From Asticcacaulis biprosthecium C19 (lineage in GTDB: Bacteria > Pseudomonadota > Alphaproteobacteria > Caulobacterales > Caulobacteraceae), in the NCBI RefSeq assembly GCF_000204015.1, contig NZ_GL883077.1, forward strand, positions 2,226,432-2,265,828: a stretch of DNA of 39,397 nt. Reading direction: 5' to 3'. The notes beneath the pieces are model-generated. The model searched no databases. It saw nothing but the letters and a program-made list of their open reading frames with translations, and had not been told where the DNA came from. Position 1 is the stretch's first letter. Every line of letters begins with the position of its first letter. The position numbers were made by a program, and so were the translations under genes. Shown here piece by piece: positions 7,822 to 34,140 of the stretch.

Positions 7822-10731
7822 ATGAAGAATGAACAACGCCGCGCGCGGCGCGGTCGTTTGGCGTATCTGGCTCTGTCGGTCGCCGCCGGCGCGCTGCTGA
7901 TGGCTGCCGGCGAAGCGGCTGCCGAGGTCACACCAACCGAAGGCGAGGCGCCTCAGGATGACGCCGTCGTCGTTACCGGCCTGCGCAAGGGCTTGCAGGA
8001 TTCCTTGACCCTCAAGAAGCGCAGCACCTCTATCGTCGAAGCCGTCTCGGCCGAGGACATCGGCAAGTTGCCTGATGCCTCGATCGCCGAATCCCTGGCG
8101 CGTCTGCCAGGCCTGGCAGCGCAACGGGTCGGCGGCCGGTCGCAGACCATCTCCATCCGCGGCCTGTCGCCGGACTTTTCGACGACTCTTCTGAATGGCC
8201 GCTTGCAGGTGTCGTCGGGCGACAACCGCGCCGCCGAATTCGACCAGTATCCGTCGGAAATGGTCTCGTCGGCTATCGTCTACAAAACGCCGGATGCCGC
8301 CATCACCGGCCAGGGCCTGTCGGGTACGGTTGTGCTAAACACCATCCGCCCGCTGGACCATAAGAAGCGGGTGATCTCGGTCAATCTGCGCGGTTCGGTC
8401 AACACCAATGGCGAGGTCAATCCAGGCTTTTCGGCCAATGGCAACCGCCTCTCCGTCGCCTATATCGACCAGTTCATGGACGGAAAGCTGGGTGTGGCCC
8501 TGTCCTATGCCCACCTCGAGGACCCGTCGCAGCTCCAGCACTCCAAGAGCTGGTGGTGGGACCGCCAGGGCAATGACTCGATCACCGGTCAGCCGCGTTA
8601 CGGCGCGGGCAATGGCGACGTCATGGGCCTGCATGGCGTCGAAGCCTGGGCGACGTCGCGCGAACAGGTCCGCGACGGCTTCATGGCCGTGTTGGACTTC
8701 AAGCCGGGCGACAATTTCCGCTCGGTCAACGACTTCTACTATTCGGTCTTCGACCAGAACGAAGTGTCGCACGGCGCCCAGTGGTACCAGACCCAGTGGA
8801 CCGACGACATCCATATCAGCAATGCGACCATTGAGGAGATTGGCGGTTCGCGCATCGCCACAGGCCAGACGGTCGCCGGCGTCGTGCCGATCGTTCGTAA
8901 CGACAACAATACCCGCCGCGACGAGATGTTCTCGTTCGGCTCCAACAACCGGTTCAACATCGGTGCGTGGCGCTCGGTGCTGGACTTTGGCTATTCGCGC
9001 TCGGTGCGCAAGGAAAGCATCAACGAAACCTATGCCGGTTATGGCACCTCGCCGACGCCTTTGACGCGCACGCCCGACACGATTGTGGAGACCATTCCAT
9101 TCGGCGGTTTCCCGCAACTGGATCCGAGCTTCGATTATGCCGATGCCGACCATGTCTATCTCGGCGATGCCGCACCGTGGGGCGGGTGGTCACACGACGG
9201 CACCCAGCGCAATCCCAAGGTCACCGACCAGTTGACGACGGCGCGTTTCAGCGGCGCCCGCGATATCGAATGGGGCGGCTTCAAGGGGCTGGAACTGGGC
9301 CTCGACTATTCGCACCGCATCAAGACCCGCGGCGTCGAAGAGTTCGATCTGTGCCTGAAGGGCTGGAACCAGGCGACCTTCGACTGCCATGGCACGCGCG
9401 TGCGCGTTGCCGACGGCGATCTGCAGGAAGCCACCGACATTAGTTGGGCCGGGTTCGGCAGCGTCCTTTCCTACTACCTGCCGGACATCCTGGACACGTA
9501 TTACGACAAGCGTCCGATCCGCAACGAGGACAATCTCAACAAGTACTGGCAGGTCGACGAGCAACTCGTCACCCTGTTCGGCAAGCTGAGTATCGACAGC
9601 GCGATCAACGGCCATGGCCTTCGCGGTAATCTGGGCCTGCAATATGTCCACGCCACCCAGACCTCCTACGGCAACGAGATCGTGACGCCGTCGGGGCCCT
9701 ATGGCGACCCCAACCGGCCAGCCATCGGCCAGTGGGTGTCGCAAAGCACATCGTATGGCGACTTCCTGCCCAGCCTGAACCTGATCCTGGACCTGGACGA
9801 CGACTCGGTACTGCGTTTTGGCGCCAACCGCGCCATGGCCCGTCCGCGCATGGACGATCTGCGCGCCAGCCGCAATGCCGGAGTCAGCCAGATCGGTCAG
9901 CACTGGAGCGGGGGCGGCGGCAATCCGAACCTCAAGCCGTGGATCGCCGATGGCGTTGACCTGTCGTATGAGCGCTACTTCAACAAGACCAGCTATATCG
10001 GCGTCGCCACCTTCCAGAAGGTGCTGCGGACCTATATCCGCGGCCAGACGGTCGACGGGTTCGACTTCTCGGGTTGGGCCAATTCGAGCAATGTGACGCC
10101 GATCGCGTGGCTGAGCAAGGCACAGTTGGAAGCCTTGGGCCAGCCCGTTCCGGACAGCTATCCCTATCCCAACGGCGCGCCGGCCACGATCGGCAGCTTC
10201 TCGCAGCCGATCAACGGCTTCGGCGGCAATGTCAGCGGCCTGGAGCTGTCTGGCGCCATTGACGGCAGCCTGATCTGGGATGCCCTGGATGGTTTTGGCG
10301 CCATTGGCAGTTTTTCACGCGGGTGGACCAATATCCGGGCGGGCGATCCGACCGATCCGGCCAAGTTGCCGGGCTTCTCGGGCGATATCGTCAGCGCCAC
10401 GGTCTATTATGAAAAGGCCGGCTTCTCGGCCCGCCTGAACTATCGCTGGCGGTCAGAGTTCCTGGGCGAAACCTATCAGCTGTTCGCCAACCGCGGGGCG
10501 ACCCGTATTTTGGCGGACGACCAGGTCGACGGTCAGATCAGCTACGAGATGCAGGATGGGCCCCTTAAGGGCCTGACCTGGATGGTTCAGGGCTACAACC
10601 TGACCAACTCCAACTACCAGACCCAGTTGAAGGTCTCCGAGAACCGGACCAGCGACGGTACTTCTTTCCCCGAGAACTACGAGGAGTACGGCCAGACCAT
10701 CCTGTTTGGCTTCAGCTACCGCTTCCAGTGA
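7822..10731 (+). CDS. TonB-dependent receptor (Xanthomonas/Caulobacter type)
   Basis: 969 residues from ATG 7822, with GGGAGGA five bases before. Residues 1-34 are a signal peptide (basic RRARRGR, then an alanine/leucine core ending AAAEV). A TonB box-like DDAVVVTG comes next, then the plug domain (LPDASIAESLARLPGLAAQR...ISIRGLSPDFSTTLLNGR), then a 22-strand-type beta-barrel ending in FGFSYRF with a terminal aromatic region as in outer-membrane proteins. This signature matches the TIGR01782 group, which imports oligosaccharides in Caulobacterales and Xanthomonads. It lies between its LacI regulator and GH3, halogenase-like and GH30 genes, so the substrate is probably a beta-glucan-derived oligosaccharide; that part is inference. 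Confidence 0.93.
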   Translation: MKNEQRRARRGRLAYLALSVAAGALLMAAGEAAAEVTPTEGEAPQDDAVVVTGLRKGLQDSLTLKKRSTSIVEAVSAEDIGKLPDASIAESLARLPGLAAQRVGGRSQTISIRGLSPDFSTTLLNGRLQVSSGDNRAAEFDQYPSEMVSSAIVYKTPDAAITGQGLSGTVVLNTIRPLDHKKRVISVNLRGSVNTNGEVNPGFSANGNRLSVAYIDQFMDGKLGVALSYAHLEDPSQLQHSKSWWWDRQGNDSITGQPRYGAGNGDVMGLHGVEAWATSREQVRDGFMAVLDFKPGDNFRSVNDFYYSVFDQNEVSHGAQWYQTQWTDDIHISNATIEEIGGSRIATGQTVAGVVPIVRNDNNTRRDEMFSFGSNNRFNIGAWRSVLDFGYSRSVRKESINETYAGYGTSPTPLTRTPDTIVETIPFGGFPQLDPSFDYADADHVYLGDAAPWGGWSHDGTQRNPKVTDQLTTARFSGARDIEWGGFKGLELGLDYSHRIKTRGVEEFDLCLKGWNQATFDCHGTRVRVADGDLQEATDISWAGFGSVLSYYLPDILDTYYDKRPIRNEDNLNKYWQVDEQLVTLFGKLSIDSAINGHGLRGNLGLQYVHATQTSYGNEIVTPSGPYGDPNRPAIGQWVSQSTSYGDFLPSLNLILDLDDDSVLRFGANRAMARPRMDDLRASRNAGVSQIGQHWSGGGGNPNLKPWIADGVDLSYERYFNKTSYIGVATFQKVLRTYIRGQTVDGFDFSGWANSSNVTPIAWLSKAQLEALGQPVPDSYPYPNGAPATIGSFSQPINGFGGNVSGLELSGAIDGSLIWDALDGFGAIGSFSRGWTNIRAGDPTDPAKLPGFSGDIVSATVYYEKAGFSARLNYRWRSEFLGETYQLFANRGATRILADDQVDGQISYEMQDGPLKGLTWMVQGYNLTNSNYQTQLKVSENRTSDGTSFPENYEEYGQTILFGFSYRFQ

Positions 10732-10740
10732 GCCTTCCCG

Positions 10741-10766
10741 GCGGCCGGGCAGGGTTGCCCGGCCGC
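10741..10766 (+). terminator. Intrinsic terminator after the first TonB receptor
   Basis: An 11-bp GC-rich stem (10741-10751 with 10756-10766) with a 4-base loop is followed by TACTTTTCATTTT. It lies nine bases after the receptor stop codon. Partial termination here would give more receptor than downstream enzyme mRNA. Confidence 0.75.
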
Positions 10767-10794
10767 TACTTTTCATTTTCGTGACGCAGTTGAA

Positions 10795-10980: not shown

Positions 10981-11014
10981 CCGCGATCCCAACGCTAGAA
11001 TACCGGATTTCCCC

Positions 11015-12922
11015 ATGTCCCTGTTGTCCACAGTCGCCCGTATCGCCCTGGTATCCATTCTTTTCGCATCAACTCCGGCCTTGGCGAAAGAACCCCTGAC
11101 CGATTGGCCGCATATCACCTCGGCCATCCCTCAGGACGCCGCCACGGAAGCCAAGATCGCCAAAATGGTCGCCGGCATGAGCCTTCGGGACAAGGTCGCC
11201 CAGATGACCCAGGTCGAGATCAAGACGGTCACGCCCCAGGACATCAGGACCTATCAGTTCGGCTCGGTGCTGAACGGCGGCGGCTCGTGGCCGAACATGG
11301 ACAAGTACGCCACGGCCAAAGACTGGGTCGCCATGGCCGACAGCTTCCATGCCCAGGCCAAGATCCCGCTGCTGTGGGGCACGGATGCTGTCCATGGCCA
11401 TTCCAATGTCGTCGGCGCCACCCTGTTTCCCCACAATATCGGCCTGGGCGCCGCCCGCGATCCGGAGCTGATCGGTGATATCGCCGCCGCGACGGGCAAG
11501 GCGGTTCGCGCCACCGGCGTCAACTGGGCTTTCGCGCCGACCCTGGCCGTGGTCGAGGACGGCCGCTGGGGCCGCACCTACGAAGGCTTTTCGTCTGACC
11601 CGCAACTGATCCACGACTATGCCCGGGCCTATGTCGACGGCATGCAGGGTAATTTCCAAGGTCCCGGAAATATCGTCGCCACCGCCAAGCACTATATCGG
11701 TGACGGAGGCACGGCCCAGGGTATCGACCAGGGGATTACGCCGGCTAGCGAGGCCGAACTGATCAATGTCCACGCCCAGGGCTATTTTGGCGCGCTCGAA
11801 GCCGGTGTGCAGACGGTCATGGTCTCTTACAGCAGTTGGACCGATACCGGGACAGGCAAGGCTTACGGGAAGATGCACGGCAACGGCTACCTGGTGAATG
11901 ACGTCCTGAAGGGCAAGATGGGTTTTGACGGTTTCGTCATCTCCGACTGGAACGCCATCGAGCAGATCCCTGGGTGCACCAAGGACCGCTGCCCCCAGGC
12001 GATCAACGCCGGTGTCGACATGATCATGGTGCCGTTCGATTGGAAGGCGTTCATCGACAACACTGTTGCCGACGTTGAAATCGGCGACATCCCTATGTCC
12101 CGCATCGATGACGCGGTCACCCGCATCCTGCGGGTCAAGATGCGCGCCGGGTTGTTCGGCGCCAAGCCCTCAGCCAGCCCTTACGCAGGCAAGCCCCAGG
12201 CTTTGCAGGCGCGTGACCTGGCGCGGCGGGCGGTGGCGGAGACGCTGGTCCTGCTGAAAAACGAGGGGGGCCTGCCGCTAAAGGCCGGTGCAAAGATTTT
12301 GGTCGTCGGCAAGAGCGCCAACAACATGGCCAATCAGTCAGGCGGTTGGAGTATCACCTGGCAGGGGACGGAGACGAGCAATGCCGACTATCCCGTGGGG
12401 GACAGCTTGCTGACCGCCATCAAGGCCACCAATACCGGCGGCACTGTAACCTACAGCGCCGCCGGCGCCGATGTCGATGTCAGCCAGTTTGACGTCGTGG
12501 TCGCCGTGATCGGCGAGACGCCCTATGCCGAGGGCAAGGGTGACATCAAGCCCGACCAGAGCCTGGCCCATAGCGACCGCTACCCTGAGGACATTGCCGC
12601 GTTGAACGCTGTGTCCGGTAAGGGGAAACCCGTGGTCACCGTGTTCGAGTCCGGCCGGACCGTCTATGCCAATGACCTGATCAACGCCTCGGACGCGTTT
12701 GTTGCGGCCTGGTTGCCGGGTACCGAAGGCAAGGGCGTCACCGATGTCCTGTTCGGGCAGAAGGATTTCAAGGGCGTGCTGCCCTTTGCCTGGCCGGGCG
12801 CGCCGTGCGAAGGTCGCACACTTTTTCCGGCAGGTTACGGCCTGAGCTATACGAATCAAGCAACCGTCACCACACTGGAGTTCATTGAAACTCCAGGATG
12901 CCCTCATGCCCAATCCCATTGA
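11015..12922 (+). CDS. GH3 family beta-glucosidase / exo-beta-glucanase
   Basis: 635 residues from ATG 11015 with a signal peptide (to about ALAKE, residue 25), so exported, probably periplasmic. The enzyme should release glucose from the non-reducing ends of beta-glucans or oligosaccharides by a retaining mechanism. The TIM-barrel domain (about 40-370) shows KHYIGDGGT and the nucleophile Asp311 in GFDGFVISDWNAI. The second domain (about 400-610) has GETPYAEGKGD, where the barley ExoI-type acid/base Glu lies, and ends FPAGYGLSYT. Length and motifs fit the ExoI-like branch, not the longer BglX type. The open frame upstream of 11015 comes from repeats. Its 3' end overlaps the next gene by 17 bases, indicating translational coupling. 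Confidence 0.92.
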   Translation: MSLLSTVARIALVSILFASTPALAKEPLTDWPHITSAIPQDAATEAKIAKMVAGMSLRDKVAQMTQVEIKTVTPQDIRTYQFGSVLNGGGSWPNMDKYATAKDWVAMADSFHAQAKIPLLWGTDAVHGHSNVVGATLFPHNIGLGAARDPELIGDIAAATGKAVRATGVNWAFAPTLAVVEDGRWGRTYEGFSSDPQLIHDYARAYVDGMQGNFQGPGNIVATAKHYIGDGGTAQGIDQGITPASEAELINVHAQGYFGALEAGVQTVMVSYSSWTDTGTGKAYGKMHGNGYLVNDVLKGKMGFDGFVISDWNAIEQIPGCTKDRCPQAINAGVDMIMVPFDWKAFIDNTVADVEIGDIPMSRIDDAVTRILRVKMRAGLFGAKPSASPYAGKPQALQARDLARRAVAETLVLLKNEGGLPLKAGAKILVVGKSANNMANQSGGWSITWQGTETSNADYPVGDSLLTAIKATNTGGTVTYSAAGADVDVSQFDVVVAVIGETPYAEGKGDIKPDQSLAHSDRYPEDIAALNAVSGKGKPVVTVFESGRTVYANDLINASDAFVAAWLPGTEGKGVTDVLFGQKDFKGVLPFAWPGAPCEGRTLFPAGYGLSYTNQATVTTLEFIETPGCPHAQSH

Positions 12923-14429
12923 AAACATCGTCATCGTCGGCGGTGGCACAGCCGGCTGGATGGCGGCCGCCATGCTGGCCAAGCTGATCGTCGCCAAGGC
13001 GCCGAAACCGCCTACCGTCACGCTGATCGAGTCCGACGATATCAGCACGGTCGGGGTCGGTGAGGCGACGATTCCCGCTATCAAGAAGTATATGTCGCTG
13101 CTCGGTATCAACGAAGCCGATTTTCTGAAATTCACCCAGGGTACGTTCAAGCTGGGGATCGAGTTTGTCGACTGGGAGCGGTTGGGCGAAAGCTATATCC
13201 ATGGCTTCGGCAAGATCGGTCAGGACCTGGGCTGGATGCGGCCGCACCAGTACTGGCTCAAGATGCGCAACAGTGGCAAGGTGTCGCCACGGTTCGACGA
13301 TTACGCCATCAACCCGACGGCCTGCCGTCACAACCGTTTCAACAAACGCAACGGCGATGATCGCAAGACGCCGCTTAACGATATTGGCTACGCTTACCAC
13401 TTCGATGCCGGTCTGATGGCGCAGTATCTGCGCCGGATCGCTGAGCCCCTGGGCGTGAAGCGCGTCGAAGGCACGATTGTCGATGTGCGTCTGAAAGCGG
13501 AGAACGGTCATGTCAAGTCGGTCGCGCTCAAGGACGGCCAGGTGGTCGGCGGTGACTTCTTCATCGATTGCTCCGGCTTTCGCAGCCTGTTGATCGGCGG
13601 CGCCCTGGGCGTTGGCTACGAGAGCTGGAGCCAGTGGCTGCCCTGCGATCGTGCCCTGGCGGTGCCGTGCGCCAGCGTCACACCGACGACGCCCTATACC
13701 CGGTCGACGGCGCGCACGGCGGGATGGCAGTGGCGCATTCCGTTGCAGCATCGCATCGGCAACGGCCACGTTTATTCCAGCCGGTTTACCAGCGATGATG
13801 AAGCCGCCCGGGTGTTGATGGACAATCTTGACGGAAAGGCCCTGGCCGATCCGCGCCCGATCCGGTTCGAAACCGGCAAGCGCAAGAAGCTGTGGGAAAA
13901 GAATGTGCTCGCCGTGGGCTTGAGCGGGGGCTTCATCGAGCCGCTGGAATCGACCAGCATCCATCTCATTCAGACGACCGTGCTGCGGCTGCTGAACCTG
14001 TTTCCGGACAAGGACTTCGATCCGGCGACGGCGGCGGAGTACAACGCCCAGGCCGATTTCGAAATTGAACGGATCCGTGACTTCGTCATCGCCCATTACA
14101 AGCTGACGTCACGCGATGACAGTGAGATGTGGCGCTACTGTCGGGACATGGCGGTTCCCGACACGCTGGCGCGAAAGCTGGATGGCTTTGCCGCCTCCGG
14201 CCGGGTGTTCAAGGAGAATGAAGAGCTGTTCGCGGAAGACAGCTGGATCCAGGTCCTGATGGGCCAGGGGTTGATGCCGAGAGGGTACGACCCGATCGTC
14301 GACAACTACCCGGAAGAGACCATCATTGCCTATCTGAACAATATTTCCGGCGTGGTGGCCAAGTGCGTCGCCGCCATGCCGACGCACGACCAGTTTGTCG
14401 CGGCCTACTGCGCGGCGGAAATGCCATAA
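12906..14429 (+). CDS. Flavin-dependent tryptophan halogenase family protein (first)
   Basis: 507 residues from ATG 12906 (AGGA eight bases before; it overlaps the GH3 end). FAD-binding GGGTAGWMAA lies at 12-21, and GVGEATIP follows. Lys82 in GTFKLGIEF and Glu348 in IEPLESTSIHL match the catalytic Lys/Glu pair of PrnA (Lys79/Glu346). GWQWRIPLQHRIGNGHVYSS carries the WxWxIP motif that marks flavin-dependent halogenases and separates them from monooxygenases. These enzymes use reduced FAD, O2 and halide to chlorinate or brominate indoles; a flavin reductase is not encoded nearby. It has no signal peptide. The position inside a glycan operon is typical of TonB-receptor-linked relatives such as Brevundimonas BrvH, whose natural substrate is unknown. 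All catalytic motifs are present. Confidence 0.9.
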   Translation: MPNPIENIVIVGGGTAGWMAAAMLAKLIVAKAPKPPTVTLIESDDISTVGVGEATIPAIKKYMSLLGINEADFLKFTQGTFKLGIEFVDWERLGESYIHGFGKIGQDLGWMRPHQYWLKMRNSGKVSPRFDDYAINPTACRHNRFNKRNGDDRKTPLNDIGYAYHFDAGLMAQYLRRIAEPLGVKRVEGTIVDVRLKAENGHVKSVALKDGQVVGGDFFIDCSGFRSLLIGGALGVGYESWSQWLPCDRALAVPCASVTPTTPYTRSTARTAGWQWRIPLQHRIGNGHVYSSRFTSDDEAARVLMDNLDGKALADPRPIRFETGKRKKLWEKNVLAVGLSGGFIEPLESTSIHLIQTTVLRLLNLFPDKDFDPATAAEYNAQADFEIERIRDFVIAHYKLTSRDDSEMWRYCRDMAVPDTLARKLDGFAASGRVFKENEELFAEDSWIQVLMGQGLMPRGYDPIVDNYPEETIIAYLNNISGVVAKCVAAMPTHDQFVAAYCAAEMP

Positions 14430-14448
14430 AAAACAAAGGAGAGGGACT

Positions 14449-15960
14449 ATGCGGACGGGAACGAAGAGATGGCTGTGCGTAACGGCGGCAATGGTGGTGG
14501 CCTTGTCGGCTGGGCTGGCGGCGTGCGGTGGCGCCAGCGCGGGCGGGGGAGGAGGGGGCGGTACGTCGTCCTCGTCGTCGAGTTCTTCCAGTTCTTCAAG
14601 TGCAGGGAGTCTGATCCCGTCCGCCGTCTCAGCCCAGGTTTGGCAGACCAATGCCGATCAGGCGAAGCTTCTGGCCAAACAGAGCGACAGCCCGTTCAAC
14701 CTGACCACGGCTTCTGGTGTCGTGATCACGGTGGATGCCGCCCAGACCTACCAGACCATGGTCGGGTTTGGCGCCTCGATGACCGATGCCTCGGCCTATC
14801 TGATCCGCAACCGTATGTCGCCCGCCCAGCGCGATGCCCTGATGACCGAGTTGTTCGGTAAGGACGGGCTGGACCTCAGCTTTATGCGCCTGACCATAGG
14901 GGCGTCGGATTTTTCGCAGACCCACTACACCTATGACGACATGCCGGCGGGGGCGACCGACCCGACGCTGGCGCATTTCTCTTTGGCGCCAGCGAAGACC
15001 GATGTCATTCCGGCGATGAAGCAGGCCCTGGCGCTGAACGACCATATGACCGTCATGGCCTCGCCGTGGAGCGCGCCGGGCTGGATGAAGTCGTCCGACA
15101 GCCTAATCAAGGGCTCACTGAACCCGACTGCGTACGGTCCGTTTGCCGATTATCTCGTGCGCTACGTCCAGGAGATGGGGACGGAAGGCGTGCCGATCAA
15201 AATGCTGACCCTGCAGAATGAGCCGCATTTCGAGCCGGACAACTATCCCGGCATGAATGTCACCGCGGCGTCGCGGGCGGCCTTTATTGGCGGGCATTTG
15301 GGACCGAAACTGGCCTCCGCCGGTCTGGACGTGAAGATCCTCGACCATGATCATAACTGGGATCTGGCGTCATCACCATCGGCGGTTCTGGCCGATCCGG
15401 TCGCCAATCCTTACGTCGCCGGCGTCGCCTGGCACTGTTACGGCGGCGATGTGTCGGCGCAATCGACGGTGCATGACGCCTATCCGACCAAGGACGCGTA
15501 TTTCACGGAGTGTTCGGGCGGTGCCTGGGCGGCGGACTTCGGGCCCAATTTCGGCTGGCAGATGAAGAACCTGATCATCGGTTCGACGCGGCACTGGGCC
15601 AAGGGCGTGTTGCTGTGGAACCTGGCGCTGGATGAGACCTACGGCCCGCACCTGGGCGGCTGTGGTGATTGCCGCGGCGTGGTGACGATCAATTCGGCGA
15701 CCGGAAACGTTACGAGAAATCTGGAATATTATGCCCTGGGCCATGTCAGCAAGTTCATCAAGCCCGGAGCCGTTCGCATTTCCTCGAACAGTTCTGGCGG
15801 GCTGGAAACGGTGGCGTTCAAGAACACGGATGGGACGCTTGCCTTGGTGGTGCTGAATGCGAACACGACGGCGACAGCGTTTTCGGTGGTCTCGTCGGGT
15901 TCGGGCATGGGGTACACCCTGCCGGCCGGCGCAGCGGCGACCTTTACCTGGAAGCCGTAG
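14449..15960 (+). CDS. GH30 family glycosidase, lipoprotein
   Basis: 503 residues from ATG 14449, with a strong AAAGGAGAGGG site and 19 bases after the halogenase gene. A lipoprotein signal ends LAAC-GG (Cys26), followed by a flexible linker of seven Gly and twelve Ser, then the catalytic barrel from about residue 85. The acid/base is Glu258 in LTLQNEP and the nucleophile is Glu354 in YFTECSGG, as in GH30 clan A enzymes. The C-terminal beta-domain ends AGAAATFTWKP. It resembles GH30 subfamily 1 or 3 (glucosylceramidase/beta-1,6-glucanase). Anchored in the outer or inner membrane, it would cut the polysaccharide before uptake, with GH3 trimming the products. Substrate is inferred; beta-1,6-glucan is the best guess. 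Confidence 0.9.
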   Translation: MRTGTKRWLCVTAAMVVALSAGLAACGGASAGGGGGGGTSSSSSSSSSSSSAGSLIPSAVSAQVWQTNADQAKLLAKQSDSPFNLTTASGVVITVDAAQTYQTMVGFGASMTDASAYLIRNRMSPAQRDALMTELFGKDGLDLSFMRLTIGASDFSQTHYTYDDMPAGATDPTLAHFSLAPAKTDVIPAMKQALALNDHMTVMASPWSAPGWMKSSDSLIKGSLNPTAYGPFADYLVRYVQEMGTEGVPIKMLTLQNEPHFEPDNYPGMNVTAASRAAFIGGHLGPKLASAGLDVKILDHDHNWDLASSPSAVLADPVANPYVAGVAWHCYGGDVSAQSTVHDAYPTKDAYFTECSGGAWAADFGPNFGWQMKNLIIGSTRHWAKGVLLWNLALDETYGPHLGGCGDCRGVVTINSATGNVTRNLEYYALGHVSKFIKPGAVRISSNSSGGLETVAFKNTDGTLALVVLNANTTATAFSVVSSGSGMGYTLPAGAAATFTWKP

Positions 15961-15974
15961 ATAGCGGCAACACC

Positions 15975-16041: not shown

Positions 16042-16084
16042 AAGCGGCACAGCACATGGACCACCGGCTATAGGCGTCGGGATT

Positions 16085-17466: not shown

Positions 17467-17521
17467 GACGGAGTCCTTTGCGAGTCGTGAGCTGCTTACA
17501 AACCACGGATGCGGGCGAAGA

Positions 17522-17554: not shown

Positions 17555-17558
17555 ATCG

Positions 17559-20559: not shown

Positions 20560-20660
20560 AAAGATTGCAGGGGTCGCGGACCCCTGCACCCCGATACTGG
20601 GACAAAGTTACCTATCGCGGTTTCGAGGTGCAGGAGGCCGTGCCTCCTGCAATCTTTCTA
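20557..20660. repeat. Three-stem palindromic element shared by two convergent genes
   Basis: Bases 20557-20571 are exactly complementary to 20646-20660, and both arms contain the stop codons of the flanking convergent genes (LysR and GH51). Inside are two perfect 9-bp hairpins with 3-base loops: GCAGGGGTC-GCG-GACCCCTGC (20567-20587) and GCAGGAGGC-CGT-GCCTCCTGC (20630-20650). It probably terminates both transcripts. Confidence 0.75.
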
Positions 20661-22247: not shown

Positions 22248-22257
22248 CCAACTCCTC

Positions 22258-22462
22258 TTATACCTCCCCGCCGTCAGTGGGGAGGGGGACCATGAGCGTA
22301 ACGAAGCAAAGCGAAGTGTAGCGAAATGGTGGTGGGGCGACTTGCTGTCGGAGTAACAGCTACGGCGCTTCCGAAAGAAGTCGCCCCACCACCGCACCTC
22401 ACTCACTTCGCCTTCGGCTACGTTTCGCTCGAGCGGTTCCCCTCCCCACACGTGGGGAGGTA
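22258..22462. repeat. Nested palindromic repeat between GH51 and GH127
   Basis: No gene. Outer arms carry TACCTCCCC (from 22260) and GGGGAGGTA (to 22462); inner 16-bp perfect arms GGTGGTGGGGCGACTT (22328-22343) and complement (22378-22393) flank a 34-base loop. CCTCCCCACACGTGGGGAGG (22441-22460) is the near-copy of the palindrome at 10895-10914. It would fold strongly in the GH127-GH51 transcript. Confidence 0.7.
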
Positions 22463-22465
22463 TGA

Positions 22466-24787: not shown

Positions 24788-24978
24788 GTACCATCTCCCT
24801 GCTTTTTGTCTGACAATAAGGAGTCGGTTGGGTGGCGTCAATGGGGGAGGCGTACCCAAGGTGGACATTTATGTATGACCAATTGATGCCTTGTATTTGT
24901 GTGGACGCTCATTAGACCTGAGAACTTGGCCTTGAAAAACGGGCTCGCTGGCCTGGTATCATGATAATGCCGGCCTAT

Positions 24979-25608: not shown

Positions 25609-25634
25609 ATCCCCCTCCTTAAACCAACTCCTGA

Positions 25635-26776: not shown

Positions 26777-26824
26777 GATCTGCTTTTCCGCCCGTTATGG
26801 CGTCAAGCTATACCACAAACAGGC

Positions 26825-27856
26825 CTATGACGAACACGACTCCCGCAGCACCAACTGCGTCGGTATCCGCACCGACTGCGCCGGTTCGCCTTCGATCAGA
26901 GCGCAGACGCTGTCGACCAGGCGGCGGGCGGCGGCTTCGGTGTCCTGTCGGACCGATGACAGCCGCGGCCAGGCAATGTTGCATACCCACAGGTCATCGA
27001 AACCGATCACGGATACATCTTCCGGGATCTTATAACCCCGCGACATCAGTTCGCGCATGGCGCCCAGGCCCAGAATGTCGGTCGAGGCAAAGATCGCATC
27101 GAACTTCGTTCCGGCATCGAGCAGCCGGCGGACGGCCTCGGCGCCGTCGTCGATCTTGAGCTGGCTGTCGACGACCAGGGCCGGATCGGCGGCAATCCCG
27201 GCGTCGCTCAGGGCCGAACCGTAGCCGTCATAACGCTCTAGGAACTCCCAGTGGTCGGTGTCGGTCTTGCCGATATAGGCGATGCGGCGGCGGCCCGATG
27301 CGATCAGGTGGTTGACCGCGTCATAGGCGCCCGAGCTGTTGTCGGAGGCGACGCAGATCTTGCCGTTTTCGACCTTGTCCAGGCCCCAGACGACCCAGTT
27401 GTCGTCCTTCTGGTTATGGCTGCGGAAGTTTTCGGCATAGGTATCGAAGTTCTTCGAGCCCAGGAAAATGATGCCTTCCGCCGGGCGGCTAAGGCAGTAG
27501 CCGGCGCCCCAGGCGTTGCTTTCGCGCTGGAGCGAGATCATCACCTCATAGCCGCGGTCGGCGGCGTAACGGACGATGGAACCGACGATCGGCAGGAAGA
27601 ACGGATTGATGTCGCTGTGCTGCTCTTCCATGTCTTCCAGGATCAGCAAGGCCAGGGTTCGCACGCGCGACGAGCGCAGGAAACGGGCATTGTTGTCGAT
27701 CTTGTATTTCAGGACTTCGGCGGCTTTCAGCACGCGGTCGCGGGTGCTGTCCTTGACCAGAGACGACTTGTTGAGAACGCGCGATACGGTGGCCTGCGAC
27801 ACGCCGGCGGTGGCCGCCACGTCGATACAGGTCGGCTGACGCTTCATATAGCTCAT
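26825..27856 (-). CDS. LacI/GalR-family transcriptional regulator (second)
   Basis: 343 residues from ATG 27856, with GGAGGAG upstream; ATG 27847 is an alternative. Residues 10-58 are the helix-turn-helix and hinge (CIDVAATAGVSQATVSRVLNKSS...AAEVLKYKIDNNARFLRSSR). The sensor domain has RIAYIGKT, FDAIFASTDILGLGAM and VSVIGFDDLWVCNIAWPRLSSV. The palindrome GAATACGTATTC stands about 100 bases before this gene (27958-27969) and again before the second TonB receptor (29493-29504), so it likely represses both. It diverges from another LacI gene. Confidence 0.92.
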   Translation of the reverse strand: MSYMKRQPTCIDVAATAGVSQATVSRVLNKSSLVKDSTRDRVLKAAEVLKYKIDNNARFLRSSRVRTLALLILEDMEEQHSDINPFFLPIVGSIVRYAADRGYEVMISLQRESNAWGAGYCLSRPAEGIIFLGSKNFDTYAENFRSHNQKDDNWVVWGLDKVENGKICVASDNSSGAYDAVNHLIASGRRRIAYIGKTDTDHWEFLERYDGYGSALSDAGIAADPALVVDSQLKIDDGAEAVRRLLDAGTKFDAIFASTDILGLGAMRELMSRGYKIPEDVSVIGFDDLWVCNIAWPRLSSVRQDTEAAARRLVDSVCALIEGEPAQSVRIPTQLVLRESCSS

Positions 27857-28454
27857 GGGTTACGCTCCTCCGGCCGGAACGCCTGATTTCGGGACGGCGT
27901 TCTCACTTTTGTCGTTTCTCTGCAAAGCCTAAGCCGAGTTTGCAAAAATGCGCAGAAGAATACGTATTCACAGGAAGGGTGGCGTATGTCCGAAGCCGTT
28001 TTGACGCCGCGAAGCGGCCTTTCTTGCGCAAAGAGTTTGAAACCGAGAATGAACACGAATGGACACGAATAAGGAGAACAATTTCTCCTGGTTCGCAAAG
28101 GCGGACTTTACTCTTCTTCGCTGCTTCGCGTCTTCGCGTGAAACCTCTTTCTACCGTCAGCGACATTCTTCCGGTCGTGCGGGAATGAAAGAATTCTAAT
28201 TTCACGCGAAGACGCGAAAAAGAGTATTTCCAACATGGTGCTAATAATTGGTCATGTTTCGGGAGCCAAGAAACGCCTGACTAATTCGTGTTCATTCGTG
28301 TTCATTCGTGGTTTCAACCTCTTGCTGTCCATTTGCCGCTACGCGGCGGATTCAGGTCATCCTATAAAGAATGAATACGTTATCATTTTGATTTTTCGGG
28401 TTTTCTCCCGATTGCGCCTGCGCGATAGTTTCCAAAATGAAATTGCAGGGAAAC
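27857..28454. promoter_or_regulatory. Symmetric divergent control region between two LacI genes
   Basis: No gene is supported. From 27958 to 28384 it is built as a mirror image around about 28172-28177: operator GAATACGTATTC (27958-27969) and degenerate GAATACGTTATC (28373-28384); hairpins GCCGC-GAA-GCGGC (28006-28018) and GCCGC-TAC-GCGGC (28335-28347); 39-base arms (28032-28070 and 28284-28322, 35 of 39 paired); and a perfect 19-bp pair (28125-28143 and 28200-28218). The 39-base arm carries tandem AATGAACACG-type units. Confidence 0.8.
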
Positions 28455-29357
28455 ATGTCCTTCGATAGGGTCAGTCATCAAGCCCACGGAACGCCGGTCG
28501 CCAAGATGCGCCTGGCCGATCTGGCGCGGCTGGCCGGCGTGTCGGTGGCCACCGTGTCGCGCTCCCTGCAGGACTCCCCCCTGATCAACCGCACGACCAA
28601 GTCGCGGGTACGCCAGTTGGCTGCCGACAACGGCTTCTTCCTGCCGCAAGCCGGTCCGGCTGCCGTCAAAAGAGTCACCGTCGCCGTCATGATGCCGGTG
28701 CGTGAGGAAGCGCTGTACGCCGCGCTCCTGCCCGGCCTGGTGACGGCCATGCGCGGACTGCGCTGCAACCTTCTGTTCGTGCCGCTAGGCCAGAGCGCTT
28801 TCGACGATCTGCCGCGCGCGCTCGATGCCACCGGCGCCGACGCCTTCCTCTTCTTCGATGAACGCGAAGCCCGTTCCGCCCTGGCCGCCCTGACGACGCA
28901 CCGTTTCATTGTCTGGGGCAGCGGCGAAGGATCTTACCGTCGTATGGCGCCGGACAATTTCGCCGCCGGCCAGGCCGCCGTCCGCCATTTGGCGCAAGCT
29001 GGTTGCCGCCGTATCGCCTATCTCGGGGAAACCGAAGGCGCCGACACGACCCAAAAATTCATGGGCTACCTGACCGGGCTCAACGAAGCCGGCTTGGCCG
29101 TCGATCCGTCACTGATCCTGTCGTCGATCGACGATGTGCAGGAAGGGTTCGACGGGCTGTTCATTGCCAGCGAGTCCCAGGCGCGGACGGTCCCGGATGT
29201 TCAAACGGTCACGGTGGGCGAGGGCGCCGAGCGCGCCGCCCGTCTCAGCCTGGACGTTCATGCCGCCGGACGGCGGGTCTTGTCGGCCTTGCTGAACCGG
29301 AAGGATGCGGCGGATGCCGGTCTCGAAAAGATTGCCTACCATCTGAAGTGTTACTGA
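28455..29357 (+). CDS. LacI-family transcriptional regulator (third), shortened sensor domain
   Basis: 300 residues from ATG 28455 (AGGG four bases before), or 306 from ATG 28437. The helix-turn-helix is clear (MRLADLARLAGVSVATVSRSLQDSPLINRTTKSRVRQLAAD). The sensor domain shows VTVAVMMPVREEALYAALLP, FIVWGSGEG, CRRIAYLGE and VDPSLILSS. It is about 40 residues shorter than usual: the stretch that normally carries the SDIxAxG motif and the GFDD turn is reduced to DGLFIASESQARTVPDVQTVTVGEG-like text. Sugar binding may be altered. It reads toward the second TonB receptor and may regulate it together with the second LacI protein. Confidence 0.85.
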   Translation: MSFDRVSHQAHGTPVAKMRLADLARLAGVSVATVSRSLQDSPLINRTTKSRVRQLAADNGFFLPQAGPAAVKRVTVAVMMPVREEALYAALLPGLVTAMRGLRCNLLFVPLGQSAFDDLPRALDATGADAFLFFDEREARSALAALTTHRFIVWGSGEGSYRRMAPDNFAAGQAAVRHLAQAGCRRIAYLGETEGADTTQKFMGYLTGLNEAGLAVDPSLILSSIDDVQEGFDGLFIASESQARTVPDVQTVTVGEGAERAARLSLDVHAAGRRVLSALLNRKDAADAGLEKIAYHLKCY

Positions 29358-29810
29358 TTTTTCAAAGTTATAGCGCAAACGCCATGAGTAATACCGAACG
29401 CCAGTACGGCGTAATTTGCCACGCCTGAAATTGCAATAACGTGCAATGAAAATGCAGTTATTGCAAAATATGTAATAATATAAAATCTGTAAGAATACGT
29501 ATTCATAAGATTAGAAACCAAAACTTGCAAAAAGTGCTAAAATGTAAAGTACTGTAATATCAGTCAAATACGCTGTGAATTGCCAAATTTTGGTGGCGAT
29601 ATTGCAACACGTTTCGCTGTTATATTTTAAAATGTGGCGGATTACGCTTTGAGTTTATTGCTAATTTGGGGCGCAGATTTTACATTCAGGACTCAGGCGT
29701 CCGGCAGAGGCGCTCAGGTTGAGATAACAATAAACCAGGACCTGTACACGGCGATCACGCAGGGAACGCGTTGGCATCGCCACAAAAACAGACTCATCAG
29801 GAGGATAGAC
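29358..29810 (+). promoter_or_regulatory. Long AT-rich leader of the second TonB receptor
   Basis: About 450 bases without a supported gene, clearly richer in AT than the rest. TTGCAATAAC (29431-29440) and GTTATTGCAA (29457-29466) form a perfect inverted repeat with a 16-base spacer. The palindrome GAATACGTATTC is at 29493-29504. Promoter boxes could not be fixed; TTGCAA (29602) and TATATT (29621) are weak candidates. The open frame running through to the receptor looks non-coding before 29811. Confidence 0.55.
29493..29504. promoter_or_regulatory. Operator GAATACGTATTC before the second TonB receptor
   Basis: A perfect 12-bp palindrome identical to the one before the second LacI gene at 27958-27969. 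Shared, exact palindromes at a regulator gene and at a receptor gene are the usual mark of a LacI-type local regulon. Confidence 0.7.
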
Positions 29811-32630
29811 TTGATTACTCGGTATTCTAAACATAAGGGCGCGGGACTGCGGCTGCGACTTCTGGGCTGCACGGCCCTGCTGGCCCTGGCCGCGGCACCG
29901 GCCTTTGCCCAGGACGTGGTGCCGGCGCCGGATTCTGGGGCGGCCACCGGGGAGGCTGCGGCGACCGACGATGGCGTCATCGTGTTGCGCGGGATCCGCA
30001 AGGGTGTCCAGGACGCCATCACAGCCAAAAAACGCAGTTCGTCGATCATCGAAGCCGTTTCGGCCGAAGATATCGGCAAGCTCCCCGACTCATCGATCGC
30101 CGAATCCATCGCCCGCCTGCCGGGCATCGCCGCCCAGCGCGACAAGGGCCGCGCCCAGACCCTGTCGATCCGCGGCCTGGGGCCCGACTTCACCGTCACC
30201 ACCCTGAACGGCCGTGAGCAGGCCTCGACCAACGACAACCGCTCCGTCGAATACGACCAGTACCCGTCGGAAATGATCCAGCAGGTGCGCGTCTTCAAGA
30301 CGCCCGACGCCGGGATGACCTTCCAGGGCCTGGCCGGGACCGCCGATCTGTCGACCGTACGTCCCCTGTCCTACGCCCGCCGCAGCCTGTCGGTCAGCGG
30401 CAAGCTGGAGCAGAACAGTCTCGATGAGCAGGTGCCGGGTCAGTCGACCAGCGGCAACCGCTACGGCATCTCCTATGTCGATCAGTTCTTCGACAAGACC
30501 GTCGGCGTGGCGATCGGCTATTCGCACAACAAGACGCCGTTCCAGGCCCAGACCCACGAACCGTGGGGCTATCCGACCTACAGCGATGGCAATATGGTCA
30601 TCGGCGGTGACAAGTCGGGCATCCAGTCGTCCTATTATGAGCGCGACTCGATCATGGGCGTGCTGGAGCTGAAACCCAACGACCAGTTCCATGCCACCTT
30701 CGACCTGTTCCACTCGGACTTCCACGAACTGCAGACCATCCGCCGGCTGGAATACGGCACGGTATGGGGTTCGGGCACGCTGCAGCCGGGCTATACGGTC
30801 GAGGACGGTCGCATCACCAAGGGGACGTTCAACGGCGTCACCACCATTGTCGAAAACTACACCAACGACCGTAACGCCACGATCGACAATGTCGGGGCCA
30901 ACCTGGTGTTCAAACCGTCCGATACCTGGACCCTGGAAGCCGATCTCAGCAGCTCCAAGGTCGAGCGCAGCGACCTGCGCCTGGAATCAACGGCCGGTAC
31001 CGGCCCGGCGGGTTCGGTGGTGCGTGATAATCTCAGCTTCGAAACCGTTGATGATGGCGTCACCCAGCTGAGCTCGATCCTCGACTATGCCGACTTCGAC
31101 AAGGTCTACCTGACCGATCCGGGCGGCTGGGGCAGTCCGCTGTACCGCGCCGGCTATGTCGGCAATCCGGAAGTCAAGGACGAGATCTCGGCCGTAAAAC
31201 TGGCCGCCAAGCGTATAGTCGGCGGCGGTCCGTTCAGCCAGGTGACCTTCGGCATCAACCTGACCGACCGCACCAAGACCAAGCACCAATGGCAGGGCGA
31301 ACTGCGCAACAAGACGGCCGCCGCCATGGTCGTGCCGGAAGCCTTCCGAACCGGTACGGTCGACACCTCGTTCTGGGGCAATCCCAATGGCATGATTTCC
31401 TACGACGCGTTGGGCCTGTACCGCAGCGGCTTCTGGAACGTTGTCGATGCCCGCGTCGATCCGAACGCCAATACCGGCGACCGCATCTTCGACATCACTC
31501 AGACCTGGGAGATGAACGAGCAACTTACCACGCTGTTCGTCAAGGCCGACATCGACACGACCCTGTTCGGCGTGCCGGTGCTGGGCAATGTCGGGCTGCA
31601 GTCGATCACGGCAGACCAGGAGGCCAATCAGGGCTTTACCAACGGCGCGACGGTGCCCGGTGATCCGACGAAGCTGATTGTCACCCAGGTCAAGGACGGC
31701 GCCAAATACACCGACCTCCTGCCTAGCCTGAACCTGAACTTCAGCCTGCCCAACGACCTGAGCCTGCGCGTGGCGGCGGCCACCACCATGGCCCGGCCGC
31801 GCATGGACGATATGGCGGGCGGGACCAGCTACAATGTCGCGGCCGATACAGCGCCACCCTACGTCAACGGTGACATCACCTACTATTGGGGCGCCGGCGG
31901 CGGTAATCCGCATCTGAAACCGTGGAAGGCCAACGCCTATGACGTCTCACTCGAGAAGTATTTCGGCCGCAAGGGCTATGTCTCGTTTGCCGCCTACTAT
32001 AAGGAGCTGACCAGCTACATCTACTACCAGAGCGTGGCCACCGACTTCACCGGCTTCCCGCTGCCGACCCCGGCCGGCAACTATACCCGCGCCGACGCCA
32101 ATCGTCGCGGCTATACCGGCGCCCAGGCCAATGGCGATGGCGGCGGCTTTGTCCGCGGCGTCGAGTTCACCGCCTCAATCCCCGGCGACCTTCTGCATGA
32201 AAACCTTGACGGATTTGGATTTATTTTCAGTGCCGCGCTGAACAACTCCAAGATCACACCGGACGGCATCCATGCCGTGCCTCTGCCTGGCCTGTCTCCC
32301 AAGGTGATCAACACGACGCTGTACTATGAAAAGCGCGGTTTTTCGGCGCGGATCAGCCAGCGGTACCGCGCGGCGTGGCTGGGCCAGGTGCCCAACTTCG
32401 ACTCGTCGCTGGGCTCGCAGTGGGTCGATGAGGAAACCGTGGTCGACGCCCAGGTCGGCTACAACTTCGAGGACGGTCCGCTGAAGGGGCTGTCGCTGAA
32501 TCTGTCGGCCTACAACCTGACGGACCAGCCTTTCCGCTACTATGCCGGCGAGGGCCAGACCCAGAACATCCTGAAGTACGAGAACTACGGGACGACCTAT
32601 CTGCTGTCGGTCGGCTACCGCTTCTATTGA
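29811..32630 (+). CDS. TonB-dependent receptor, second (TTG start)
   Basis: 939 residues if started at TTG 29811, six bases after AGGAGG; this gives a clean signal peptide (basic KHKGAGLRLR, hydrophobic LLGCTALLALAAAPAFAQ) and no ATG would. Then come TonB box-like DDGVIVLRG, the plug (LPDSSIAESIARLPGIAAQR, LSIRGLGPDFTVTTLNGR) and the barrel, ending YGTTYLLSVGYRFY with a terminal aromatic residue. Same Xanthomonas/Caulobacter group as the first receptor, with clear similarity in the plug. It is followed 43 bases later by a halogenase homologue, as the first receptor's locus also contains one. The likely substrate is an oligosaccharide, perhaps mannan-derived given the GH26 gene beyond, by inference. 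Confidence 0.92.
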   Translation: MITRYSKHKGAGLRLRLLGCTALLALAAAPAFAQDVVPAPDSGAATGEAAATDDGVIVLRGIRKGVQDAITAKKRSSSIIEAVSAEDIGKLPDSSIAESIARLPGIAAQRDKGRAQTLSIRGLGPDFTVTTLNGREQASTNDNRSVEYDQYPSEMIQQVRVFKTPDAGMTFQGLAGTADLSTVRPLSYARRSLSVSGKLEQNSLDEQVPGQSTSGNRYGISYVDQFFDKTVGVAIGYSHNKTPFQAQTHEPWGYPTYSDGNMVIGGDKSGIQSSYYERDSIMGVLELKPNDQFHATFDLFHSDFHELQTIRRLEYGTVWGSGTLQPGYTVEDGRITKGTFNGVTTIVENYTNDRNATIDNVGANLVFKPSDTWTLEADLSSSKVERSDLRLESTAGTGPAGSVVRDNLSFETVDDGVTQLSSILDYADFDKVYLTDPGGWGSPLYRAGYVGNPEVKDEISAVKLAAKRIVGGGPFSQVTFGINLTDRTKTKHQWQGELRNKTAAAMVVPEAFRTGTVDTSFWGNPNGMISYDALGLYRSGFWNVVDARVDPNANTGDRIFDITQTWEMNEQLTTLFVKADIDTTLFGVPVLGNVGLQSITADQEANQGFTNGATVPGDPTKLIVTQVKDGAKYTDLLPSLNLNFSLPNDLSLRVAAATTMARPRMDDMAGGTSYNVAADTAPPYVNGDITYYWGAGGGNPHLKPWKANAYDVSLEKYFGRKGYVSFAAYYKELTSYIYYQSVATDFTGFPLPTPAGNYTRADANRRGYTGAQANGDGGGFVRGVEFTASIPGDLLHENLDGFGFIFSAALNNSKITPDGIHAVPLPGLSPKVINTTLYYEKRGFSARISQRYRAAWLGQVPNFDSSLGSQWVDEETVVDAQVGYNFEDGPLKGLSLNLSAYNLTDQPFRYYAGEGQTQNILKYENYGTTYLLSVGYRFY

Positions 32631-32632
32631 TG

Positions 32633-32668
32633 AAAGGGCGCCTGCCGGATTCGTCCGGCGGGCGCTTT
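32633..32668 (+). terminator. UUCG-capped hairpin between receptor and halogenase genes
   Basis: AAAG..CGCC.GCCGGA pairs with TCCGGC.GGCGCTTT around a TTCG loop, with a two-base bulge. It ends in TTT and lies directly before the halogenase start at 32674, where no other ribosome binding site is visible. It may act as a partial terminator or hide the start. Confidence 0.6.
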
Positions 32669-32673
32669 CGCTT

Positions 32674-34140
32674 ATGCTTCCTGTAAAATCCATTGTTATT
32701 GCCGGCGGCGGCACGGCCGGATGGATGACCGCCGCCGCCCTGGCCCGGGTGTTTGGGCCGTCGCTGAACATCACCCTGGTCGAGTCCGACGAGATCGGCA
32801 CCATCGGGGTGGGGGAGGCCACCATCCCGGCCATTGCGCGTTTCAACAGCATGCTGCGCCTTGATGAAGACGCCTTCCTGCGCGAGACTCAGGGCACCTT
32901 CAAGCTGGGGATCGAGTTCCGCGGCTGGCGCGAACGCGGCCACAGTTATATGCATTCCTTCGGAGCGGTGGGGCGCGACCTGGCCTACCTGCCGTTTCAT
33001 CACTACTGGTACCAGGACCGGATGCAAGGCGGCGATGCTGGTGAACTGGGTGACTACGACCTTAACCAGGCTGCGGCCTACGCCGGCCGGTTCGCCCGCT
33101 CCGACGACCTGGTCCATGCCTTCCATTTCGACGCCGGTCTATATGCCGCCTTCCTGCGCCGCTATGCCGAGGCGGGCGGCGTTACCCGTATCGAAGGCCG
33201 CATCGCCGACGTCGCGGTCGAAGAGGATATCCGCGCGTTGCGTCTGGCCGATGGCCGCGCGATCGCCGGCGATTTCTTCATCGACTGCACCGGCTTTCGC
33301 GCGCTGCTGATCGAAGGCGCCCTGAAGACCGGCTACGAGGACTGGCGGCACTGGCTGCCGTGTGACCGCGCGCTGGCAGTGCCGTCGGCGCGAACCTGTC
33401 CGTTGCTGCCCTATACCCGCGCGACGGCCCAGACGGCCGGCTGGACCTGGCGCATTCCGCTGCAGCACCGCACCGGTAACGGCCATGTCTACTGCTCCGA
33501 CCATATCAGCGACGAGGAGGCCCATGCCGCCCTCATGGTGCAACTCGACAGCGAGGCCCTGGCGGACGCCCGTCCGATCCGCTTTACCACCGGCCGGCGC
33601 AAAAAATTGTGGAACAAAAACTGCCTAGCCATCGGTCTGTCGGCCGGGTTTATCGAGCCGCTGGAATCGACCTCGATCCATCTTATCCAGTCGGCAATCG
33701 AGCGCTTCATCATGCTCTTTCCGCGCGGTCCAGATCACGACCGCCTGGCGCAAGATTTCAATGATTCCAGTATTCACGAAATGGAAAATATTCGCGATTT
33801 CATTATCTTACATTACCACGTCAACGGGCGGTATGATGAAACCTTCTGGAATTCATGCAGGAACATGACCATACCCGACAGCCTGCACCACCGGATCGAA
33901 CTGTTCCGCGACACGGCCGCGCTGCACATTCCTCCGGCCGATATCTTCCGCCTGCCGAGTTGGCTGCAAGTCCTGCATGGCCAGGGCGTCGAACCCCAGG
34001 CCGTGCACCCCTTCACCGAACGGGTGGCGCGCGACGACCGGGCGCGGTTCTTGCGCGGGTTGCGGTTCGAATGTCACGAAAGGCTTGAGCTGTTGCCGGC
34101 GCACGACGCCTTCGTCTGGCGGCATTGTTATCATCGCTGA
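32674..34140 (+). CDS. Flavin-dependent tryptophan halogenase family protein (second)
   Basis: 488 residues from ATG 32674. FAD-binding GGGTAGWMTA is at 11-20, with GVGEATIP after it. Lys77 in GTFKLGIEF and Glu331 in IEPLESTSIHL correspond to the PrnA catalytic pair, and GWTWRIPLQHRTGNGHVYCS has the WxWxIP halogenase motif. It is a paralogue of the first one, alike at the active site but quite different toward the C-terminus (ending HDAFVWRHCYHR). Cytoplasmic, no signal peptide. It needs reduced FAD from elsewhere. The substrate is unknown; the link to a TonB receptor suggests it acts on something imported or sensed along with the glycan. Confidence 0.9.
   Translation: MLPVKSIVIAGGGTAGWMTAAALARVFGPSLNITLVESDEIGTIGVGEATIPAIARFNSMLRLDEDAFLRETQGTFKLGIEFRGWRERGHSYMHSFGAVGRDLAYLPFHHYWYQDRMQGGDAGELGDYDLNQAAAYAGRFARSDDLVHAFHFDAGLYAAFLRRYAEAGGVTRIEGRIADVAVEEDIRALRLADGRAIAGDFFIDCTGFRALLIEGALKTGYEDWRHWLPCDRALAVPSARTCPLLPYTRATAQTAGWTWRIPLQHRTGNGHVYCSDHISDEEAHAALMVQLDSEALADARPIRFTTGRRKKLWNKNCLAIGLSAGFIEPLESTSIHLIQSAIERFIMLFPRGPDHDRLAQDFNDSSIHEMENIRDFIILHYHVNGRYDETFWNSCRNMTIPDSLHHRIELFRDTAALHIPPADIFRLPSWLQVLHGQGVEPQAVHPFTERVARDDRARFLRGLRFECHERLELLPAHDAFVWRHCYHR

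Follow-up and report, generated by a model that had tools for sequence, protein, structure and literature searches.

Halogenase homologues as possible accessory enzymes of carbohydrate TonB-dependent receptor operons in Asticcacaulis biprosthecium C19

What a flavin-dependent halogenase homologue does in a sugar-uptake locus is the question raised by a stretch of 39,397 nucleotides of Asticcacaulis biprosthecium C19 (contig NZ_GL883077.1, positions 2,226,432 to 2,265,828; hereafter the window). Two loci of the window, A and B, each contain a TonB-dependent receptor (TBDR) gene and a halogenase homologue, as the initial annotation had stated: the halogenases match PF04820 with 627 and 595 bits (cut-off 21), and the receptors match TIGR01782 with 523 and 542 bits (cut-off 310). 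The annotation 'tryptophan halogenase' is familiar from sugar loci of bacteria like these. The two halogenases could be accessory enzymes of carbohydrate TBDR operons that modify a large substrate made together with them, perhaps the receptor itself, a reading to which we give a probability of about one in three (0.35). What the sequences themselves record is linkage to receptors, operator-like sites, intact catalytic motifs and membership of an open-site subgroup of halogenases, together with recurrent companions resembling 2-oxoglutarate (2OG) oxygenases and, in some loci, an apparently dead halogenase paralogue. The pairing of halogenase and TBDR is not peculiar to the window and recurs in several bacterial groups.

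Halogenase A (plus strand, open reading frame (ORF) 12885-14429, likely ATG at 12906) and halogenase B (plus strand, 32674-34140) share 50% identity. The catalytic pair (Lys82/Glu348 in A, numbered from the ATG at 12906, and Lys77/Glu331 in B) and the WxWxIP motif, present as WxWRIP in both, are kept, as had been noticed earlier, and both enzymes also contain the GxGxxG FAD motif. In the halogenases this motif begins no later than residue 20, which leaves no room for a signal peptide and suggests that the enzymes are cytoplasmic. Halogenase-like ORFs of at least 300 residues amounted to 198 (197 distinct, one being a duplicate), of which 167 score 420 or more and are referred to as the main type. 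The catalytic Lys and Glu are found in 166 of these 167, as are the glycines of GxGxxG, the exception being a truncated ORF. The usual Gly of the proposed halide site is replaced by Ser (Ser351 in A, Ser334 in B), as in 159 of the 167 main-type relatives, and neither enzyme has the Gly of the Fx.Px.Sx.G motif quoted in PMC7336383. The missing Gly is not decisive, because bromination is known from BrvH and the Xcc enzymes, which have no Gly there either; according to PMC7336383, Xcc4156 has Asn at this site, the remaining Xcc enzymes have Ser, and BrvH has a non-Gly residue too. The earlier opinion that A and B are probably active is favoured by the intact motifs, with the Ser at the halide site as a caveat that the in vitro bromination by BrvH and the Xcc enzymes softens.

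The closest solved structure to halogenase A is 6y1w (Xcc4156, 512 bits), and those closest to halogenase B are 9luq, a Pseudoalteromonas enzyme (487 bits), and 6y1w (485 bits). BrvH (6frl) gives 473 bits with A and 442 bits with B. These three structures match A and B with 442-512 bits, and other chains, including those of the PrnA/RebH kind, with at most 295 bits. By sequence, A and B belong to the BrvH/Xcc4156 open-site subgroup, and the Xanthomonas campestris B100 enzymes, Xcc4156 among them, show the same motifs as A and B and a non-Gly halide site in all cases. PrnA, RebH, PyrH and Thal, which lie in natural-product clusters, share the FAD motif, the Lys/Glu pair and WxWxIP with A and B. 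In PMC7336383, these free-Trp halogenases have longer substrate loops than the open-site enzymes, whereas Xcc4156 and BrvH are described as open-site enzymes whose substrate loops are short and whose catalytic Lys is exposed; they brominate in vitro and act on indoles, not on free Trp. Their native substrates are given there as unknown, and a peptide substrate is proposed for them.

The genome of the strain (5.41 Mb, 98% complete) contains 25 matches to PF04820 and 72 to the TBDR plug domain, one of the latter under the cut-off. For 19 of the 25 halogenase genes the nearest plug is at most 8 kb away (distances between midpoints), whereas 2000 random draws gave 5.3 such genes on average and never more than 13, so that this proximity is not due to chance. 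When three members of a second subfamily are excluded, 21 of the 22 genes of the window type are within 10 kb of a plug; 20 of these 22 genes are intact and two are dead, and 19 of the intact ones belong to TBDR loci. A scan of a collection of species genomes yielded at least 582 confirmed relatives, from which the best 80 loci were retrieved, the sample being biased toward close relatives of the query; stretches L001-L025, duplicates of longer ones, and halogenase ORFs shorter than 300 residues were left out. A TBDR was found in 77 of the 80 loci (67 by profile search, eight by Pfam and two more). Those without it are L153, which starts near a contig end, L160, where a pullulanase gene is next to the halogenase, and L197, a contig of 3.8 kb. 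The receptor gene is upstream, on the same strand and within 2.5 kb of the best-scoring halogenase in 48 of the 80 loci. The gene order of locus A, TBDR-(GH3)-halogenase-GH30 (GH, glycoside hydrolase), is kept in 10 of the 80, some of them with an intervening Cupin_8 gene, and occurs in Sphingomonas, Caulobacter, Parvularcula, Novosphingobium, Qipengyuania and Rheinheimera; related loci, among them those of Sphingomonas and Caulobacter, likewise have a LacI gene 5' of the receptor. Halogenase fusions were considered for L160, L161 and L191, whose ORFs are overlong, and rejected, since these ORFs look like out-of-frame upstream extensions; that of L160 overlaps the pullulanase frame. Counting the co-occurrence of receptor and halogenase, as the initial annotation had suggested, gave a two-sided answer: the receptor is nearly always present in the loci of the retrieved halogenases, but among 40 genomes of the family 22 have a match at E 0.001 and just 15 a strong one (more than 400 bits), which makes the halogenase an accessory of the receptor and no necessity.

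The receptors of these loci are of different types, either TIGR01782-like or OMP_b-brl_4, the latter mostly with a CarboxypepD_reg domain, and the glycoside hydrolases found across the loci belong to families GH13, GH97, GH32, GH68, GH43, GH30 and GH26. Since both receptor types and so many different GH families are represented, the receptor, more than any single glycan, is the common factor of the loci. Neighbouring genes of halogenases in other genomes, those already labelled being excluded, were scanned for 137 of 198 selected proteins; of the remainder, seven were receptors already scanned and 54 were left out by hand, gene-like frames being preferred. The 137 include at least 24 GH13, 11 MFS, nine GH97 and five glucokinase proteins, and at least two each of GH32, GH68 and GH43. 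Enzymes of alpha-glucans are thus the commonest neighbours, and the GH13, GH97, GH32 and GH68 genes indicate that many loci serve alpha-glucans or fructans. These starch and fructan loci disfavour an aromatic-linked glycan as the common substrate, so that the modification of imported aromatic-linked glycans, one of the roles envisaged previously, loses ground. Genes for making or exporting a precursor are absent from the 25 most frequent neighbour families of each tally.

Other genes recur in the halogenase loci, namely those of Cupin_8, SapC and DUF6445. Six of the 14 Cupin_8/DUF6445/SapC genes of the C19 genome are within 6 kb of a halogenase, a space equivalent to 4.4% of the genome (binomial p 1.7e-5, a value that overstates the case, since in each of two loci the genes come as a pair). 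The putative 2OG oxygenases of PF13759 account for five of 60 neighbours in other genomes. DUF6445, a family of unknown function in Pfam, keeps an HxD...H pattern (for instance, L137:12594-13271). Its structural model (predicted local distance difference test (pLDDT) 87) finds 2OG-Fe(II) oxygenases among the top matches (best E 1.4e-5, template modeling (TM) score about 0.5), and no sequence match exists in the PDB up to E 1; from the model, DUF6445 looks like a 2OG-Fe(II) oxygenase. Cupin_8 proteins, which we take to have the 2OG-oxygenase fold, gave JmjC matches that are all below the cut-off.

The 31 lower-scoring halogenase-like ORFs comprise 14 with both Lys and Glu, mostly of the second subfamily, and 17 that have lost the Glu, which is replaced by Asp in five; the Lys is also lost in 15 of the 17. 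The dead gene occupies the second position in 16 of these 17 cases, within TBDR-adjacent runs that comprise three halogenases nine times and four halogenases seven times; the remaining case, L206, has two halogenases with the dead one second. Examples are L039:11671-13155 and L038:10461-12023, with 15 further loci, in Alphaproteobacteria (Asticcacaulis, Caulobacter, Oceanicaulis and sphingomonads) as well as Gammaproteobacteria (Gilvimarinus, Glaciecola and Cellvibrionaceae). The ratio of nonsynonymous to synonymous substitution rates (dN/dS) of the dead paralogue is, for the closest two pairs of loci, about 0.22 vs 0.07-0.09 in its neighbours (L039/L200) and about 0.24 vs 0.13-0.16 (L170/L179). 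Across 13 locus pairs it ranges from about 0.17 to 0.65, never reaching 1 and in each pair exceeding that of the flanking genes; dS is often close to saturation. The four-gene run of L039 and that of Asticcacaulis sp. AC460 are 94-96% identical in the three active enzymes and 83% in the dead one. Judged from these rates, the dead paralogue is under purifying selection, more relaxed than that of its neighbours. Its model (pLDDT 85, TM score 0.87 to BrvH) keeps the halogenase fold, the underlying alignment having included active halogenases. The receptors of these loci are longer (1117 vs 990 residues, p 2e-7, uncorrected for kinship). A conserved, catalytically dead halogenase paralogue is new here, and the runs in which it stands between active members suggest a multi-subunit enzyme acting on one large substrate.

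The second PF04820 subfamily (L030:9301-10908, L035:8780-10354 and L038:6996-8588) has WTWDIG in place of WxWxIP, and its halide site reads ESTG or EATG. Members in the C19 genome are either distant from TBDR operons or encoded on the other strand; L030 has a GntR gene beside the halogenase, and L035 a LacI-like one.

How could halogenase, receptor and glycan be connected? In the proposed mechanism, the glycan would relieve LacI, and receptor and halogenase would be produced together. The cytoplasmic enzyme would draw on FADH2 from a housekeeping reductase, on O2 and on halide, and would oxidatively modify an electron-rich side chain, most likely an indole. The target would be a large, open-bound substrate encoded in that locus, with the receptor or some other polypeptide destined for export as the foremost candidate; its modification before export would tune glycan binding or stability. 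Several observations favour a large shared substrate: receptor and enzyme are co-inherited, linked receptors cluster on the tree, the enzymes belong to the open-site subgroup, their companions resemble hydroxylases, and multi-gene runs include a dead member. Receptor and enzyme distances are correlated (Mantel r 0.65, p 0.0002, n=107, uncorrected for species kinship), and halogenase-linked receptors are clustered, with 11 changes on the tree vs 37.7 when shuffled; receptors shorter than 800 residues or below 250 bits, the L033 rows and the flank receptors of L110, L163 and L132, whose status is unknown, were left out of the receptor comparisons. A wider proposal ascribes to the TBDR loci of Proteobacteria a maturation system for receptors. 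Each receptor would have its own set of enzymes, halogenases (some with a dead subunit) and 2OG oxygenases, acting before export on aromatic side chains of that receptor or of a partner; in this general form we consider the proposal rather unlikely.

Trp is more abundant in linked than in unlinked receptors (1.43% vs 1.21%, n=109 and 45, p 0.0009, uncorrected for the number of residues), the enrichment within the C19 genome having a p of 0.04, and receptors linked to more active halogenases tend to have a higher Trp count (rho 0.25, p 0.009). Several results weigh against the receptor, or any partner made with it, as the substrate. Linked receptors also have more Lys (p 0.0003) and less Phe (p 0.00003), and their His content differs (p 0.006); since Lys and Phe differ even more than Trp, the enrichment is unspecific. 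Receptor length shows the same trend with active halogenases (rho 0.29), sugar binding alone may explain the extra Trp, and tree-aware pairs give Trp no support at three thresholds (1.1 in the same direction and 2.0 in the opposite one, of eight pairs). No Trp column stands out among the receptor columns listed (uncorrected for the number of columns). Taking these together, Trp as the receptor target was rejected, the raw enrichment being unspecific and lost under tree-aware pairing. Within the C19 genome alone, receptor and enzyme distances hardly correlate (r 0.18, p 0.08, n=14), eight of the 14 companion genes are not near a halogenase, and the sole PF13759 gene is on contig C4, which is free of halogenases. 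A main-type halogenase that is 58% identical to A (C2:550389-551756) has no TBDR plug match within 200 kb, and TBDR-rich relatives may be devoid of the enzyme, given the few family genomes with strong matches. Terminal motifs were not seen in the 71 receptors of the C19 genome, inspected by eye.

The absence of a protein target site in the receptors also bears on a different explanation, according to which free indole, phenol or another aromatic compound is halogenated during glycan use, for signaling, defence or detoxification. BrvH and the Xcc enzymes do act in vitro on free indole and indole derivatives (PMC7336383). However, the receptor linkage spans loci for different, often non-aromatic glycans, the most frequent neighbour families of each tally lack genes for precursor synthesis or export, and 20 intact paralogues in one genome make a single metabolite hard to accept as the explanation; a small molecule is a possible substrate that we hold to be somewhat improbable. 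The same 20 copies bear on the earlier suggestion that the divergent copies of the window have different substrates: their divergence stands, at 50% identity, and different substrates are a conjecture in a genome with that many copies of the type.

The enzymes might instead be natural flavin monooxygenases that hydroxylate an aromatic side chain, halogenation being a side activity. The change from Gly to Ser at the halide site, shared by A, B and 159 of the 167 main-type members, would fit such an activity, as would the hydroxylase-like companions (Cupin_8, PF13759 and DUF6445) and the weak similarity of B to QhpG (41 bits, E 9e-11); but A, with 22 bits, and B are both under the cut-off of that model (240), the Lys, Glu and WxWxIP of halogenases are nearly invariant, and relatives with a non-Gly halide site brominate in vitro (PMC7336383), for which reasons hydroxylation as the natural reaction seems doubtful. 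It is very improbable that the halogenases are passenger genes functionally unrelated to the receptors, or parts of an ordinary pathway for a halogenated natural product. A patchy distribution (strong matches in 15 of 40 family genomes) and the orphan copy at C2:550389 would suit passengers, whereas 19 of 25 genes near a plug, when 5.3 are expected, a TBDR in 77 of 80 loci and a TBDR-(GH3)-halogenase-GH30 order kept in distant genera would not. As for a natural-product pathway, a Pfam scan of 27 window proteins showed none that looks like a core biosynthetic enzyme, no cluster-finding program having been used, in agreement with what had been said of the neighbourhood before.

That the system is little described, as the initial annotation put it, is borne out as far as searches of open papers go, none of those listed evidently describing an association of halogenases with TBDRs; subscription papers are mostly outside this survey and specialists may know of it. 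QhpG- and LodB-related folds can serve protein side chains. The maturation enzymes of protein-derived cofactors QhpG and LodB are distant homologues of A and B, with scores far under the cut-offs, and quinoprotein genes are absent from the 27 window proteins scanned. The X. campestris B100 enzymes are treated as biocatalysts in PMC7336383, whose main text has no occurrence of TonB. BrvH is of marine metagenome origin and has a second halogenase gene adjoining it (PMC5945002); TonB does not occur in that paper's text. Carbohydrate utilization (CUT) loci of Xanthomonas and loci resembling polysaccharide utilization loci (PULs) contain a TBDR, a LacI-type regulator and glycoside hydrolases, as does the window, but a halogenase is not seen as one of their components (no occurrence in PMC7142613), and the CUT-locus paper PMC1790865 is absent from the 11 papers listed as containing both halogenase and TonB-dependent. 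In Sphingomonas, a single insertion in the 'tryptophan halogenase' gene RS06730 is reported among genes affecting colony morphology (PMC11340318). Many public PF04820 'tryptophan halogenases' may serve nutrient receptors and not natural-product synthesis; if so, growing a culturable strain on a defined glycan would allow a direct test for the native substrate of BrvH and Xcc4156. A hetero-oligomeric enzyme is predicted by the conserved dead paralogue, which is second in 16 runs, and receptors bearing halogenated or hydroxylated Trp would represent a new class of outer-membrane protein modification.

Both loci of the window combine a TBDR with glycoside hydrolases and a sugar-type regulator, as CUT/PUL-like loci do. 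Their description as sugar loci under LacI control is consistent with LacI-type genes and operator-like palindromes ahead of both receptors; in each palindrome search an equal number of matches was obtained in one of 100 shuffles. Locus A, on the plus strand, begins with a LacI-family regulator (6312-7382; PF00356 and PF13377). The operator-like palindrome TGGAAGCGCTTCCA lies at 7749-7762 (no mismatches), ahead of TBDR A, and a second site of this type with two mismatches is found at 6247, the expected number of matches with up to two mismatches being 0.21. TBDR A (7765-10731, likely ATG at 7822; PF07715, PF00593 and TIGR01782) is of the TonB-Xanth-Caul type. It is followed by a GH3 glycosidase ORF (10706-12922; PF00933 and PF01915), the true start of which is probably further in. 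The likely ATG of halogenase A precedes the end of the GH3 stop codon at 12922, giving an overlap of 17 nt, so that the translational coupling of both genes proposed earlier is plausible. Next on the same strand is a GH30 gene, similar to endo-beta-1,6-glucanases (14395-15960, likely ATG at 14449; PF02055), whose product has a signal/lipobox-like N-terminus. The glycan of locus A may be beta-1,6-glucan, an assignment kept tentative because the GH30 protein scores 349 bits with the endo-1,6-beta-glucanase model NF053856, under its cut-off of 700.

Locus B has two LacI-family genes, a divergent regulator on the minus strand (26825-27856; PF00356 and PF13377) and a short protein on the plus strand (28437-29357; PF00356). 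The palindrome search found AGAATACGTATTCA at 29492-29505, ahead of TBDR B, and again at 27957, upstream of the divergent LacI gene. TBDR B (29634-32630, plus strand; PF07715, PF00593 and TIGR01782) is separated from halogenase B by 43 nt, and this gap contains a strong stem-loop (32635-32668, plus strand), detected by folding the 60 nt past the stop (minimum free energy -30.0 kcal/mol, z -3.9). A gene for tRNA-Lys (34162-34237, minus strand) lies between halogenase B and a mannanase-like GH26 gene (34442-35467, plus strand; PF02156) 3' of the locus, which suggests mannan as the glycan of locus B. Stem-loops 3' of the receptor are present in 58 of 71 receptor-halogenase junctions vs 16 of 163 positions after halogenase stops. 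A halogenase-specific device was nevertheless rejected: of 44 receptors with no linked halogenase, 25 likewise have a strong stem-loop 3' of the gene, which makes it a general receptor feature. By eye, TBDR A also has a stem-loop shortly 3' of the gene (10741-10766).

Between loci A and B, two arabinofuranosidase-type genes (20658-24868; C-terminal alpha-L-AF domain and GH127) form an extra glycan block. At the end of the window, a very long open frame (35852-39397) with 20 stretches of RTX calcium-binding repeats continues past the last nucleotide.

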